NCBI GenBank assembly: GCA_020061125.1
Contig: JAGUYV010000030.1
Location: 1-5,491, forward strand
Reading direction: 5' to 3'
DNA length: 5,491 nucleotides
Source: a bacterium
GTDB taxonomy: Bacteria > UBP15 > UBA6099 > DSWB01
A program made the translations under genes and the position numbers. The number at the start of each line of letters is the position of its first letter. Positions within the stretch are counted from its first letter, which is position 1. The notes beneath the pieces were generated by a model that saw nothing but the letters and a program-made list of their open reading frames with translations, made no database searches and was not told the origin of the DNA. This document shows positions 103 to 5,491 of the stretch, one piece after another.

Positions 103-137
103 CCCGTTGCCCGTCTCGGCATTGTGATGGGCCGGTC

Positions 138-141
138 GGAG
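138..141 (+). promoter_or_regulatory. Shine-Dalgarno GGAG for the membrane protein start at 151
   Basis: GGAG lies nine bases before the ATG at 151. The alternative starts at 124 (GTG) and 127 (ATG) have no purine-rich element at a suitable distance, so this site decides the start. Confidence 0.6.
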
Positions 142-150
142 ACAATAACC

Positions 151-717
151 ATGAACTGGCGCATAGCGGCGGACATCGCGATTGGCCTGGCGGTTCCCCT
201 GGGGTTTGCAGCGGCGTTCGCCGCGGGCAAGGTGACAAAGCGGGAGTTGCTATTTCTGGCCGCGGGCTTCGCCATCGGCGCGTCGTTCGAGTTTTTTACA
301 TGGGCAATGGGCGGGGATTTCTTTTTCGTAATCTTGGACTGGCCTCTGCCCATGGCCACCTATTACCTGTGCCATTCCTCGTGGGACGCGGGCATCTTCT
401 TCGCCGGGTATGCGCTGTGCGCGGCGCTGCTTCGCAAGCCCCGGGCGTCGGTCGCGGTGTCGTTCGACTGGCGGGAAGCGCTGATCATGACCGTGTGGGG
501 CGCGGGCACCGCGTTTTTCGTGGAGATCGCGGGCAACGGAATCATCTGGCAATATGTTCCCGGCAAATGGAATCCCGAATGGATCACCGTGGCCGGGCGC
601 AGGTACACCATATTCATTCAGGCCGTGTGGCTCGCGGCTCCGGCTGTGTTCTATGCGTGCTGCCTTGGGATTTCCAGGGCGTCGCGAAGGGACCAAAACC
701 CCGAGTCCGGGGAATAG
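151..717 (+). CDS. Uncharacterised integral membrane protein, about five helices
   Basis: This is a 188-residue hydrophobic protein whose family I do not recognise. The ATG at 151 was chosen because GGAG sits nine bases upstream; the frame stays open to GTG 124 and ATG 127, which would add nine or eight residues. Likely membrane segments, judged by eye, are residues 5-25, 32-54, 70-95, 110-128 and 152-175. The tail (SRASRRDQNPESGE) is charged, and basic residues (K27, K30, R31; R95, K96, R98) mark likely cytoplasmic loops. Polar residues lie in or next to the hydrophobic stretches: E47, H75, D79, E125 and N129. Aromatic residues cluster around residues 131-144 (IIWQYVPGKWNPEW). No signal peptide cleavage site is evident. 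The polar intramembrane residues could mean an enzyme or a transporter rather than a simple anchor, but no function can be assigned. It sits 48 bases after rsmE on the same strand. Confidence 0.75.
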   Translation: MNWRIAADIAIGLAVPLGFAAAFAAGKVTKRELLFLAAGFAIGASFEFFTWAMGGDFFFVILDWPLPMATYYLCHSSWDAGIFFAGYALCAALLRKPRASVAVSFDWREALIMTVWGAGTAFFVEIAGNGIIWQYVPGKWNPEWITVAGRRYTIFIQAVWLAAPAVFYACCLGISRASRRDQNPESGE

Positions 718-754
718 GCCAGAGCGGCTGGCGGGTCCGGCCGTTCCTCCCGTA

Positions 755-782
755 TTGAATCCGCAGGCGCAGGCGATACAAT
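755..782 (+). promoter_or_regulatory. Sigma70-like promoter for the alpha/beta hydrolase gene
   Basis: A -35 box TTGAAT (755-760) and a -10 box TACAAT (777-782) are separated by 16 bp. They match the consensus at 4/6 and 5/6 positions. Transcription would begin near 789, inside the gap after the membrane protein gene. This falls downstream of the in-frame ATG at 785, so a transcript from here would use the start at 821 or later. The call is by eye; chance matches are less likely in GC-rich DNA but cannot be excluded. Confidence 0.5.
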
Positions 783-803
783 GTATGCGTGAAAAATACC
801 GGC

Positions 804-810
804 AAGGGGG
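804..810 (+). promoter_or_regulatory. Shine-Dalgarno AAGGGGG for the hydrolase start at 821
   Basis: This purine run ends ten bases before the ATG at 821. It lies within the short leader predicted from the promoter at 755-782. No comparable site precedes the ATG at 785. Confidence 0.5.
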
Positions 811-820
811 TTGGCGCGGC

Positions 821-1777
821 ATGCGGGTTGCAGGGTTGATAAACCGGGACAAGAGGTTTCGACGATATTTGAAGGCGCAGACGGCGCTGGTCGCGGCGGC
901 GCTGCTGTGGTGCGCAGCCGCATGCGCGGCGCCCGCGCCCACGCTCCCGGATTATTCCTATGGGCCGCACGAGCGCAATGTGCTGGATTTCTGGCGGGCG
1001 GAATCCGCAACGCCCGCGCCGGTTGTGATCTACATCCACGGCGGCGGCTTCTATCTCGGGAGCAAGGGGCAGGTGAACGGCGCAGACATCGAGACATGCC
1101 TGAATAACGGCGTGTCCGTGGCGTCTATCAATTACCCTTACTATGCCGATGTGTCGCTGCAAGGCATCATCCGCGACAACATCGCGCGCGCCGTGCAGTT
1201 TCTGCGCTACAAATCCGGAGAACTGAACATAGACAAGGACCGGATCGCCGTGTACGGGCAGTCCGCGGGCGCAGGCTCGTCCCTGTGGCTTGCATTTCAC
1301 GACGACCTCGCGGATCCCGCGAGCCAGGACCCGGTTCTGCGTGAGTCGTCGCGCGTGCGCGCCGCGGGCGCCATTGACACGCAGGCCACTTATGATTTCC
1401 TGCGATGGCCCGAAATCTTCAAACACACCATAGACGGCCGGGCCATGAACGGCTGGATGATGGTCATGAAGCAGGTCATTCTCGAGATGTATCATGTGAA
1501 AAAGGAGAAGGATCTCAAATCTCCGGAAAATGCGGCCATGCGAAGCGACCTTGACATGCTCGCGCTCATGGATGCATCCGACCCGCCCGTGATCATGCAG
1601 ACCTTCGAGAGCCGGTTGAGGTCGTCCGATGTGCTCCATCACATCGCCCATCCCGTGACCGTGCTTGAAAATTGCGAAAAGACAGGAGTCTCGTGCACGC
1701 TGATCCGGGACGAAACGCCCGAGGAACAGCGCATTCGTGTGGTCGAATTCCTGATTCGCCATCTCAAGCAGGATTGA
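821..1777 (+). CDS. Exported alpha/beta hydrolase, HGGG (HSL/esterase-like) type
   Basis: This is a 318-residue protein of the alpha/beta-hydrolase fold, close to the usual length for the family. After a basic N-terminus (KRFRRYLK) there is a hydrophobic run (TALVAAALLW, residues 21-30) and Ala-rich residues ending near APAP at 37-40. This looks like a Sec signal peptide, so the enzyme probably acts outside the cytoplasm. HGGG (73-76) is the oxyanion-hole motif of hormone-sensitive-lipase-like esterases, and GQSAG (146-150) is the nucleophile elbow with Ser148. The likely reaction is hydrolysis of an ester on a small molecule or an acylated carbohydrate; the substrate is unknown. The usual C-terminal HGxxD acid and GHG-type histidine are not recognisable; D270 and H273/H274/H277 are possible replacements. 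ATG 821 has a Shine-Dalgarno site. ATG 785 overlaps the predicted promoter, and TTG 869 would give a shorter signal peptide. The gene ends at TGA just before a strong terminator. Confidence 0.88.
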   Translation: MRVAGLINRDKRFRRYLKAQTALVAAALLWCAAACAAPAPTLPDYSYGPHERNVLDFWRAESATPAPVVIYIHGGGFYLGSKGQVNGADIETCLNNGVSVASINYPYYADVSLQGIIRDNIARAVQFLRYKSGELNIDKDRIAVYGQSAGAGSSLWLAFHDDLADPASQDPVLRESSRVRAAGAIDTQATYDFLRWPEIFKHTIDGRAMNGWMMVMKQVILEMYHVKKEKDLKSPENAAMRSDLDMLALMDASDPPVIMQTFESRLRSSDVLHHIAHPVTVLENCEKTGVSCTLIRDETPEEQRIRVVEFLIRHLKQD

Positions 1778-1804: not shown

Positions 1805-1838
1805 AAAACCGGCCCCCTGTGCGCAGGGGGCCGGTTTT
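1805..1838. terminator. Bidirectional intrinsic terminator between convergent genes
   Basis: A perfect 15-bp inverted repeat has its left arm at 1805-1819, its loop TGCG at 1820-1823 and its right arm at 1824-1838. The GC core CCGGCCCCCTG is flanked by AAAA on the left and TTTT on the right. On the plus strand the U-tract continues as TTTTCTGTTTT; on the minus strand it is TTTTATTTTGG. It therefore fits as a Rho-independent terminator for both the hydrolase gene (ends 1777, +) and the SLH protein gene (ends 1870, -). Confidence 0.93.
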
Positions 1839-1869: not shown

Positions 1870-4803
1870 TTACTTGTCCTGCAGCGCGATTTCCTCGGCG
1901 ATGACATTCACCATGAGCGGGTCCTTCATGCCGAGCAGGGACTGGGTGTAGATGTTCCAAGCGCCCACGCCCTGGGAATACTGTAGATTCTGGAAGATGT
2001 CGAAGTAGAATTTGCAGAAGTCATACTTGCTCGACGGCGCTTTTGTCCAGGGTTCGTACCGGTCCGAGCAGGCTGCGGTCATGCTGGAGCGCTGGATGCG
2101 GTTGAGGATCACATTGTAGCCCAGCGGCTCGAAGCCGGCCTTGTTCGCGGCCGCGCCCATGGACATTTCGCAGTCCGCGGTGCGGAACAGGGACCGGGTG
2201 CGGTCATCGGGATCTTCGTACAGCGCGGGGGCCAGGGAGCAGTCTTTGCGGAAGTGCCTGTTTTTACCCTTTTCCACCACGCCGAAGGCCAGCGGGTCTA
2301 TGAGCAGTTCCACTGCCAGCCGGGCCTGGATTTCCTTGTCGTCTTTTTTGCCCTGGGGATCGATCTGCATGGCTCGCAGGCGGCCGAACAGGTTCCACAC
2401 CTCGGGCTGATAGAGCACGACCTGCTCGGGCAGGTTCGCCGGGTCCGTGGTATCGGAGATGGCGGGCACCGAGGCCGGAGTCCCGCTGCCCAGGGTGTTG
2501 TGGTACTTGAGGGTGTAAACGATGGCGATTTCGCCGAGCACGGGTTCTTTCTGATCAATGAACGCTTCGCCGGGCATCTTGATGGCCTTGGCCCAGGACC
2601 GGCTTCCAAACGCCAGGACATTGGGATCCAGATCGAAGGTCTGCGTGTCTTTGGCTTTTTCGGGATCTTCGGGGTCGAGCAGGAGCATGGTCACACGCGC
2701 CGCAGTGTCGTTGTCGTTCATGACCACGCCGGTCACGCGGCCGTAATGCCGGGTGAAAGTTGCGATGGGAATGCGCGGCGCGTGTTCGCGGTGCGCCATG
2801 TCCACTTCGAGATAACCGAGCAGTTTTTTCTTGCCATCGGCCTCGATGCACTCCGAGGTGTCGCCGCTGCGGCCCGGCACGCATAGACCCTGGGCCTTGG
2901 ACTGCTCGGGGGGAATGCGCAGGTACAGGGTGAAGGAATCTTTTTTGGCGTCCCAGGCTTTCTCCTCGTCCTTGACATCGTCGGCGTCAATCATCATGCC
3001 GCCGTAGTCCAGAGTGAGGGACGCGATGCGTTTGCGCAGAGTGGCGTCCCACCCGTCGCGCGTGGCGGACTGGACCAGGGAGCTTACGGCCGCCGGGGAA
3101 TCCTGATAGGTGCGCTGATGCCAGGTGATGAAGTCCGCCATCTGCTGGATGCGGCTGCGCACCTGCGCCTTTTCGTTTTCTATGACATTGAGGTAGCAGA
3201 GGCGGCGGGCGTTGAGCTTGCCGCCGGAATACAGATCGAAGAAATCGTTTGCGGAGACCTCGCGCACCACGGCCGTGTCGTCGCCGTTCCAGCAGTCGCG
3301 CACATACAAGTAGGCCAGGTCGTCCACGCGGAACTCGCCGTCCTTGAGGGCCAGGGTGCGGCCGCCGCCGTCCACGCTCTTGATGATGCCCGAGGCGTCC
3401 CACATGCCGGGGCAGGATTTCTCGTTCCAGTTGCCGATGAAGAACTTGGACAGAATCGCCACGGCCTCGGAGCGGTCAATGTAGCGGTCCGGCTTGAGCC
3501 GGATGTCGGTGATGCCGCTGCGCGGATCGAGTTTGGCCGCGGCGTCCGCCTTGATGCCCGTGCGGGAATCAATCAGTCCTTCGCGCATGGCCACCACGAT
3601 GAAGCCCGGATAGTTCTGCGCGGCGTCCACATCCTCGCGCCGCTTGATTTCCCCGGCGGCCAGGCTGACATCGCTGAACCGCGTGTACTGCTGGTTCAGT
3701 TCCAGGGCGCGGTCCACAATGCCCGCGTAGTATTTGAAATTGTTCAGGGACTGGTTCACGGCCGGGCCGCAGTAGTATTTGTCAAATGAGTACTTGGCGT
3801 CGTTCGCGTTTTTGTCGCGGGCGATATAGTCCACCAGGGCCACGAAGGACGCGATGAACTCCTCGCGGGTCACGAACTGGTCCGGGAACGCGCGGCGGTC
3901 TTTGCCGTAGTCGTCCAGCGGGTTGACGCTGCGCTCCACATCCTTCCATTCATAGTCCGCGCCCGTGACTTTGGCGCGCCCCTTTTCGGACTTGGCTTTG
4001 TCCTTATCCTTGCTCTTGCTTTTTTCCTTGTCCTTTTTGCCTTCCTTGCCATCCTTTTTGGCGGCCTGGGCGGCATCGTCCTTGACAGCGGCGCGCATGC
4101 CCTTGAGAGTGTGAACATGCTCGAAAATGGCGCGGTCCACGACTTCCTCCATGTACATGAACGAGGGGTGCAGGGCGCGCACATCGTTGTACAGGGTCGG
4201 CTCATTGGTGCGCTGATGCAGGACTTCGGAGCGGTTCTGATACGGGCCGTGGGGGACATTCTGCCCGTCAATCACGATTTTGGTGTTCACATCGGCTTCG
4301 AGAGTGAAGGGGCCGCCTTTTTCGATGGAGTTCAGAAGGCGGGCGAAGATGACCACCAGGTCGGCGCGGGTGAGGTAGTGCTTGAACCACGAGTGCATGA
4401 TCGCGGCTTCGTGAACATCCGGGCCGTAGTTCTTGGTCACGAATTTCTCGATGGCGCGTTCCATGTCGAAGCGCTCGCCGCTGTGCCACCACATATTGTC
4501 CTGCGCGCACAGGTGGTTGTTGGCGCTCCAGTTGGCCCAGGGGAACCGCTTGCTGGCGTTCATTGTGGGCGTGTTGCCGAACCAGGACACGCACTGGCCC
4601 GTGTCTGTGGCGATTGTGCCTTCTTCGCACTTGTCGTCCCAGATCTCGCAGCCCAATCCCTGGATGTCTTTGAAGTAGACATGATCGGGAATTTCCTTGG
4701 GCGTTTCCCTGGCCTGCAACCGCGGCAGGGGCGCGGCAATCAGGGCCAGCAGGAAAATGCTGAACAAGCAGATTTTGGTCCGATCCATCCCAAATGTGTG
4801 CAT
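1870..4803 (-). CDS. Secreted SLH-domain surface protein with Lys-rich insert and unrecognised C-terminal half
   Basis: This is a secreted protein of about 977 residues. An N-terminal signal peptide (hydrophobic core CLFSIFLLALIAAPLP) probably ends near LQA, residues 29-31. Three S-layer-homology signatures follow: LTRAD (144-148), VTREE (311-315) and IDRSE (442-446). Each is followed by a hydrophobic helix, as at the end of an SLH module. FKDI (44-47) and FSDV (376-379) resemble SLH module starts. SLH triads usually bind pyruvylated or other cell-wall or envelope polymers, so surface attachment is inferred. The modules are split by long inserts, one of them Lys-rich (249-278). Two stretches (about 471-547 and 685-767) look beta-rich. 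The remainder to residue 977 is unrecognised. The mature part holds 14 cysteines, suggesting disulfides. ATG 4803 was chosen for its GGTGA five bases upstream; GTG 4812 and ATG 4788 are alternatives. The gene has its own promoter and a shared terminator. Existence of the gene is certain; the SLH assignment is fairly firm, its function unknown. Confidence 0.85.
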   Translation of the reverse strand: MHTFGMDRTKICLFSIFLLALIAAPLPRLQARETPKEIPDHVYFKDIQGLGCEIWDDKCEEGTIATDTGQCVSWFGNTPTMNASKRFPWANWSANNHLCAQDNMWWHSGERFDMERAIEKFVTKNYGPDVHEAAIMHSWFKHYLTRADLVVIFARLLNSIEKGGPFTLEADVNTKIVIDGQNVPHGPYQNRSEVLHQRTNEPTLYNDVRALHPSFMYMEEVVDRAIFEHVHTLKGMRAAVKDDAAQAAKKDGKEGKKDKEKSKSKDKDKAKSEKGRAKVTGADYEWKDVERSVNPLDDYGKDRRAFPDQFVTREEFIASFVALVDYIARDKNANDAKYSFDKYYCGPAVNQSLNNFKYYAGIVDRALELNQQYTRFSDVSLAAGEIKRREDVDAAQNYPGFIVVAMREGLIDSRTGIKADAAAKLDPRSGITDIRLKPDRYIDRSEAVAILSKFFIGNWNEKSCPGMWDASGIIKSVDGGGRTLALKDGEFRVDDLAYLYVRDCWNGDDTAVVREVSANDFFDLYSGGKLNARRLCYLNVIENEKAQVRSRIQQMADFITWHQRTYQDSPAAVSSLVQSATRDGWDATLRKRIASLTLDYGGMMIDADDVKDEEKAWDAKKDSFTLYLRIPPEQSKAQGLCVPGRSGDTSECIEADGKKKLLGYLEVDMAHREHAPRIPIATFTRHYGRVTGVVMNDNDTAARVTMLLLDPEDPEKAKDTQTFDLDPNVLAFGSRSWAKAIKMPGEAFIDQKEPVLGEIAIVYTLKYHNTLGSGTPASVPAISDTTDPANLPEQVVLYQPEVWNLFGRLRAMQIDPQGKKDDKEIQARLAVELLIDPLAFGVVEKGKNRHFRKDCSLAPALYEDPDDRTRSLFRTADCEMSMGAAANKAGFEPLGYNVILNRIQRSSMTAACSDRYEPWTKAPSSKYDFCKFYFDIFQNLQYSQGVGAWNIYTQSLLGMKDPLMVNVIAEEIALQDK
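3970..4059 (-). repeat. Lysine-rich low-complexity segment inside the SLH protein
   Basis: These 30 codons encode a highly charged tract with 14 Lys, 1 Arg, 4 Asp and 3 Glu and short KD/KS/KE alternations such as DKEKSKSKDKDKAKSEK. It interrupts the second SLH-like module, between the helix ending HTLKGM and the VTREE signature. It is probably a disordered or extended linker. Such codon-repeat tracts often vary in length between strains; that is inference here. Confidence 0.8.
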
Positions 4804-4808
4804 GAGGT

Positions 4809-4813
4809 TCACC
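4809..4813 (-). promoter_or_regulatory. Possible ribosome binding site GGTGA for the SLH protein start at 4803
   Basis: Reading the minus strand, GGTGA lies five bases before the ATG at 4803. It is a weak, slightly close match to the Shine-Dalgarno consensus, but it is better than anything ahead of GTG 4812 or ATG 4788. Confidence 0.4.
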
Positions 4814-4857: not shown

Positions 4858-4886
4858 ATTATATCACAACAATTTAATAAAGACAA
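4858..4886 (-). promoter_or_regulatory. Strong sigma70-type promoter for the SLH protein gene
   Basis: On the minus strand, a -35 box TTGTCT (4886-4881, 4/6 match) and a perfect -10 box TATAAT (4863-4858) are separated by 17 bp. The surrounding 4858-4900 stretch is AT-rich, in sharp contrast with the GC-rich coding DNA. Transcription would begin near 4851, giving a leader of about 48 bases before ATG 4803. The near-ideal layout suggests high expression, as expected for an abundant surface protein. Confidence 0.75.
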
Positions 4887-4906: not shown

Positions 4907-5491
4907 TCATGGCGTGAAAACGCGCACGCGCGGAGGCAGGCCCGAGTCCGGCGCAGGTGTGGAAGTCAGGGTCACACTCACGGCCGGATCAATTTCGAAC
5001 AGCCTGAACCAGGGCACAAGCGTGTGCATGGAAAATCCTGACAGCACAAATGCCGGTGCGGCCGGTCCCAGGTTCAGCGATGTGCCCTCAAAGTATTGTG
5101 CGAACAGGGTGCGGGTCCGGGCCTCGACATCTTTCGCCAGCCTGACCCTGATTTCCGGATAAAGATTGCCGGGAATGTTGAACGGCGACGCGCCGCGCAT
5201 GCGCAGCTCCGTTTCCAGAGGCGGGCGTATCGCGGCCATGTAAAGGTAATCGTCGGCGAAGCGCTGGAGCAGGAATGCGGCATGCGCCGCGGCGCGCGCG
5301 CGGATGTCCGCGCCGCGTTCCGCATCCAGGCGAAGAATCCTGGCCATGAGCAGGTGAGCGGCCGCGGTTCCAAAGGCGTTGCCCGCGGTGTTCCATCCCG
5401 CGTATGAAGACAGGGCCGCGGGTCCGGGCCCGGCCAGCAGAAATCCGGCCAGAGCTTCGTCGGCCCGGTTCACCAGGCGCACATCGGCCAC
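4907..5491 (-). CDS. DUF4127 family protein, C-terminal part (5' end beyond the window)
   Basis: The frame is open from the right window edge to TGA at 4909-4907, giving about 194 C-terminal residues. The valine codon at the edge is probably internal, since DUF4127 proteins are much longer. YAGWNTAGN (fragment residues 30-38), followed by an FGTA stretch, and PWFRLFEID (160-168) near the end resemble conserved C-terminal blocks of DUF4127, a family of uncharacterised bacterial proteins. Between them lie an alanine-rich helical stretch (44-78) and DDYLYMAAIRP (80-90), also compatible with the family. The biochemical role is unknown. No transmembrane segment is visible in this part; the N-terminus, where a signal peptide would be, is not seen. 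The gene lies upstream of the SLH gene on the same strand. About 100 bases separate them, and the SLH gene has its own promoter, so co-transcription is not required. No clear terminator follows the stop codon. Confidence 0.75.
   Translation of the reverse strand: MADVRLVNRADEALAGFLLAGPGPAALSSYAGWNTAGNAFGTAAAHLLMARILRLDAERGADIRARAAAHAAFLLQRFADDYLYMAAIRPPLETELRMRGASPFNIPGNLYPEIRVRLAKDVEARTRTLFAQYFEGTSLNLGPAAPAFVLSGFSMHTLVPWFRLFEIDPAVSVTLTSTPAPDSGLPPRVRVFTP

Follow-up and report, generated by a model that had tools for sequence, protein, structure and literature searches.

A strongly diverged candidate SLH triad with long spacers in an orphan, predicted secreted protein

The 980 aa protein P0001, encoded in the window analysed here, is most likely SLH-derived and, judging from its sequence, would work like an SLH anchor. 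We put at about 0.68 the probability that it is an exported envelope protein whose N-terminal 460 residues form a strongly diverged single-chain SLH triad that anchors it. The window is the whole of a 5491 base contig (G000:C475) from a 4.1 Mb genome that is 79% complete, and the lineage is small and poorly sampled, with seven genomes making up our sample of the phylum. Features of the window are listed in Table 1.

Table 1. Features located in the 5491 base window
Feature	Residues of P0001	Position	Strand	Remarks
Gene for P0001, predicted secreted, orphan	1-980	1870..4812	-	likely start Met4 or Met9; G+C 61%, GC3 0.83; no homologue in the collections searched
Predicted signal peptide	9-35	4708..4788	-	cleavage near LQA-RE; basic n-region, hydrophobic core, AxA-like site; judged by eye
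Cys/Trp-rich segment	55-109	4486..4650	-	4 Cys and 6 Trp; upstream of core helix 1
SLH core-helix (TRxE) site 1, FKHYLTRADLVVIFARL	143-159	4336..4386	-	10.8 / 12.3 bits (lineage / broad matrix)
SLH first half of module 2 (F-DV loop and helix 1), PTLYNDVRALHPSFMYMEEVVDRAIFE	205-231	4120..4200	-	15.7 bits
Long helix 1-helix 2 loop of module 2	232-309	3886..4119	-	sits between two matched halves
SLH core-helix site 2, PDQFVTREEFIASFVAL	310-326	3835..3885	-	15.3 / 12.6 bits (lineage / broad matrix)
Weak candidate helix 1 of module 3	358-370	3703..3741	-	similar to aa 217-229; self-match 33, P ~0.09 by shuffling; tentative
SLH core-helix site 3, PDRYIDRSEAVAILSKF	441-457	3442..3492	-	14.6 / 17.1 bits (lineage / broad matrix)
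Small predicted beta-rich domain	463-560	3133..3426	-	directly after triad; single-sequence AF2
C-terminal region	561-980	1873..3132	-	no Pfam or NCBIfam match
Sigma-70-like promoter TTGTCT-17-TATAAT, extended -10		4858..4886	-	just upstream of P0001 gene; 10/12 consensus matches; consensus match only
Terminator hairpin, 15 bp stem		1805..1838	called on +	between convergent esterase and P0001 genes

The initial annotation had recognised three SLH-type signatures, LTRAD (4374-4360, aa 147), VTREE (3873-3859, aa 314) and IDRSE (3480-3466, aa 445), at intervals of 167 and 131 residues, and all of these positions and intervals were confirmed. Ordinary SLH modules are approximately 55-60 aa each, and the intervals in P0001 exceed the usual spacing two- to threefold. 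Core-helix sites were scored with two matrices: a lineage matrix, which drew on seven genomes of the host's order (25 SLH copies) and left P0001 out, and a broad matrix made from 104 copies, mostly from other phyla. By the lineage matrix the three signatures mark the top three TRxE-helix sites in P0001, the next best scoring 4.8 bits. When P0001 was shuffled, the top three sites had means of 5.4, 3.2 and 2.1 bits, and the observed second or third value was not reached in any of 2000 shuffles. The decoys were 277 real genes (119 198 aa) from three genomes of the order, and the third-best site never exceeded 6.5 bits in any of them; with the broad matrix, a single site across all decoys reached 12 bits. 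A TRAE-type motif is present at the start of all three core helices at a level beyond that of the 277 decoy genes. A Poisson estimate from the decoy rates suggests that roughly one protein in 10 000 to one in 10 million would contain three such sites; that the sites had been chosen by eye from an unstated number of windows softens this estimate, but chance is still unlikely.

Module 2 alone could be mapped on both of its halves; modules 1 and 3 each show a clear core helix but no clear helix 1. The first half of module 2, which reads HP for HW and AIFEH for GIIxG, scored 15.7 bits against a decoy-gene maximum of 10.7 bits and lies in the correct order, ahead of site 2. It is separated from the core helix by 78 residues, against about 10-14 residues between the halves of an ordinary SLH module. 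This loop is likely to be unstructured and includes a Lys-rich tract (aa 244-284, window 3961-4083) in which 15 of 41 residues are Lys. Both the Lys-rich tract and the Cys/Trp-rich segment reported earlier are real. The accompanying claim that the modules carry long inserts held for module 2 (approximately 80 aa, Lys-rich), and inserts in the other modules could not be mapped with confidence. Neither module 1 nor module 3 has a first-half match (F-DV/HW start, GIIxG end) beyond chance. FKDI (aa 47) and FSDV (aa 379), which had been suggested as module starts, are present, but chance alone would provide about 0.27 and 0.11 such motifs in their respective intervals, and we do not retain them as starts.

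Comparison of P0001 with itself, which involves no profile, pointed to the same elements. Residues 305-321 and 436-452 matched with a score of 38, above the 95% shuffle level, followed by 217-229 and 358-370 (33), 146-165 and 313-332 (30) and 146-158 and 444-456 (26). These four SLH-site or helix pairs are among the top five self-matches, the fifth being a Lys-rich low-complexity pair, and the best matches in shuffled sequences scored 30 +/- 4. The SLH matrix does not recognise the candidate helix at aa 358-370. Taken together, the matrix scores, their calibration on decoys and the internal repeats support a divergent SLH triad whose spacers are long, and the initial interpretation is upheld in that part.

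The residues of the presumed ligand site give a mixed picture. In SpaA from Paenibacillus, Trp13, Gly29 and Arg43 hold the pyruvylated sugar (PMC6081394). All three modules of P0001 retain the core arginine (R149, R316 and R447) together with its acidic partner. In module 2, Trp13, Gly25 and Gly29 are replaced by Pro216, Ala228 and His232, and in modules 2 and 3 no GYPDGTF loop can be recognised. The loss of the Trp13 and Gly29 equivalents from module 2 fits the earlier suggestion of altered ligand binding, which we infer from sequence. The same replacements, and the unrecognisable loops, also favour the main rival explanation, that the triad is of SLH descent and has kept its TRxE helices for packing but lost wall-polymer binding, any role in the envelope falling to the C-terminal region or the inserts. 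TAAA double mutants of SpaA are insoluble, such that the TRAE motif also has a role in folding (PMC6081394) and might be conserved for that reason. However, all three arginines and their acidic partners persist in P0001, and the SpaA Gly29Ala substitution lowers affinity approximately tenfold without abolishing binding (PMC6081394). We therefore consider loss of binding unlikely. An improbable variant is that P0001 is the first observed representative of a family whose three SLH modules all have insertions of 60-80 aa in or near the ligand loop, with the Lys-rich and Cys/Trp-rich inserts forming a new binding surface around the spindle that replaces the classic pyruvate site.

When the Pfam SLH profile was used to search whole P0001 or unaltered pieces of it, no match was returned, an outcome that by the initial annotation's own terms formally counts against an SLH assignment. 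We judge this profile to be too strict for half-modules that are separated. With its insert left out, module 2 scored 12.8 bits against a PF00395 cut-off of 20.8 bits, and as the cut-off was not reached P0001 is not filed under PF00395. No SLH match was found anywhere in P0001 with NCBIfam, and whole-protein HMM totals were 3.7 bits for the lineage SLH model and 5.0 bits for the broad one. A single-sequence AlphaFold2 model of aa 36-478 was uninformative (pLDDT 35). Set against a pseudo-threefold spindle of three modules of approximately 55-60 aa, P0001 offers three sites spaced 167 and 131 aa apart and a model with a pLDDT of only 35. The absence of a stock profile match, the very low whole-domain scores and the failure to find helix 1 in modules 1 and 3 would suit convergence, in which unrelated amphipathic helices with a T/D-R-x-D/E cap make up a new all-alpha domain that has no SLH ancestry. 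Convergence would, however, have to produce three sites in one protein at odds of roughly 1e-4 to 1e-7 by the decoy rates, and also a first-half match that exceeds every decoy and is correctly placed ahead of site 2; we regard it as quite improbable.

No homologue of P0001 was found in the seven phylum genomes beyond its own at E values up to 10, in the genome_contigs or viral_contigs collections (with patterns reaching close relatives only), among PDB sequences, plasmids and phages, in 42 SLH-bearing genomes of other phyla or in four further genomes. Matches with E values of 0.06-0.3 in the 42 genomes looked chance-like on reading, for example ABC-transporter-like, TPR-like and glycosyltransferase-like stretches, and were rejected. 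As a second member was not found in the collections searched, the divergent SLH subfamily proposed earlier is not established. That the contig is misbinned, with the orphan status of P0001 in the phylum reflecting a foreign source, is very doubtful: the contig is only 5.5 kb and other phylum genomes lack a homologue, but the window's G+C content of 61% fits that of the genome's SLH-bearing stretches (56-61%), DUF4127 genes like the one it carries are found in 7/7 phylum genomes, and the anatomy of P0001 stands regardless.

If P0001 is a diverged SLH anchor, it would be exported after expression from its own transcription unit, and each module would contribute one TRxE core helix (aa 143-159, 310-326 and 441-457) to the parallel three-helix core of an SLH spindle. 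The long spacers, of which the best mapped separates the two helices of module 2, would loop outside the spindle. Attachment to an anionic wall or envelope polymer would be through R149, R316 and R447, with the C-terminal 500 residues remaining free. Should this be correct, the SLH core can stretch and drift below profile detection, yet keep three core arginines, and SLH-anchored proteins are undercounted in deep lineages. Inserts in the ligand loop, if confirmed, would allow the parts of the SLH groove that wall binding requires to be tested on a natural variant. A half-module matrix calibrated on real genes is a cheap way to detect SLH proteins that have drifted.

Clear SLH proteins are encoded in 7/7 phylum genomes, each of which has an SLH protein of approximately 550-620 aa with a single SLH near the N-terminus. 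A PF04230 pyruvyltransferase-type gene is present in five of the seven, including the host of P0001, where two contigs each have a partial match. As a broad family, PF04230 is found in many bacteria, and its co-occurrence with SLH proteins lends weak support to wall anchoring. SLH-based envelope attachment, as in the OmpM/SlpA SLH porins of diderm Terrabacteria, is plausible in the lineage of P0001 also. OmpM, however, trimerises and carries a single SLH in each chain, whereas P0001 has three sites per chain and lacks a recognised barrel domain. The OmpM-type plan of a single N-terminal SLH, a coiled-coil stalk and a C-terminal beta-barrel was not found in P0001, and there was no Pfam or NCBIfam porin match.

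Like the exported Bacillus anthracis Sap (3PYW) and Paenibacillus alvei SpaA (6CWH), which have single-chain triads, P0001 has three TRxE-type core helices within one chain, and it too is predicted to be exported. All three sites in P0001 include the arginine, which is missing from one in SpaA. Compared with both, P0001 differs in its 167 and 131 aa gaps, its largely unrecognisable helix 1 halves, the absence of Trp13 and Gly29 from module 2 and scores below the Pfam cut-off. Stretched SLH sets are not new: the host's relatives and bacteria of other phyla have them, with gaps of 105-194 aa, and a further example has been published. This reduces the novelty of the arrangement and indicates that long inserts are tolerated in SLH. 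What is unusual in P0001 is its degree of divergence and its orphan status. A literature search found no paper dedicated to SLH with long insertions.

Parallels to the module 2 insert are L192 (G011:C143) and L193 (G013:C93) of other phyla, which have SLH triads whose gaps measure 194 and 66 aa and a BsuPI domain (PF12690) inside module 2. They are from metagenome-assembled genomes named Terrabacteria ANGP1 and Bacillota. In both, the BsuPI/IPI Ig-like domain lies between the module 2 helices and an extra small segment follows module 3. Like P0001, they carry the insert between the two helices of module 2 and have a small domain after the triad; unlike P0001, they have ordinary modules (three Pfam SLH stretches in L192), a folded Ig-like insert and far less divergence. 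A specific kinship was considered and rejected, as a two-sequence profile of the L192 and L193 triads does not separate P0001 from decoys. A 585 aa protein of Clostridium thermocellum contains three SLH-IPI repeats (PMC3901451) and, as in P0001, there are approximately 100 aa or more extra between SLH core helices, but this protein too has ordinary modules and, as its insert, a folded Ig-like domain.

A 514 aa frame (L194, G009:C31), also from outside the host's phylum, has four SLH sites at spacings of 105-118 aa, and a helical-looking linker comes after each of them. In the host's phylum, L032 (G001:C115) has gaps of 149 and 71 aa between its core helices and a weak middle helix (8.2 bits). 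L032 and L040 (G002:C209) both have a long beta-rich-looking N-terminal region and a stretched SLH set, and L032 has a C-terminal SPOR domain by Pfam. With two kinds of peptidoglycan-associated domain per chain, these proteins are possibly an outer-membrane tether of the phylum. They resemble P0001 in the stretched set and the phylum, but have a different N-terminal region, a SPOR domain and recognisable SLH, and no sequence relation to P0001 is detectable.

Beyond the triad, single-sequence AlphaFold2 predicts approximately seven strands and one helix for aa 463-560 (pLDDT 63), and a structural search with this model gave no convincing fold match. By position, this segment resembles the small post-triad segment in L192 and L193. 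The promoter-like site upstream and the terminator between the convergent genes downstream suggest that the P0001 gene is probably its own transcription unit. The convergent neighbour is a BD-FAE/alpha-beta hydrolase gene within 554-1777(+), and a 197 aa frame with hydrophobic stretches at 124-717(+) matches nothing in Pfam or NCBIfam and lacks a further copy elsewhere in the genome. On the other side, a partial DUF4127 gene occupies 4907-5491(-) at the contig end. This is the second DUF4127 copy in the genome, and the other, on contig C56, matches the phylum-wide copy.
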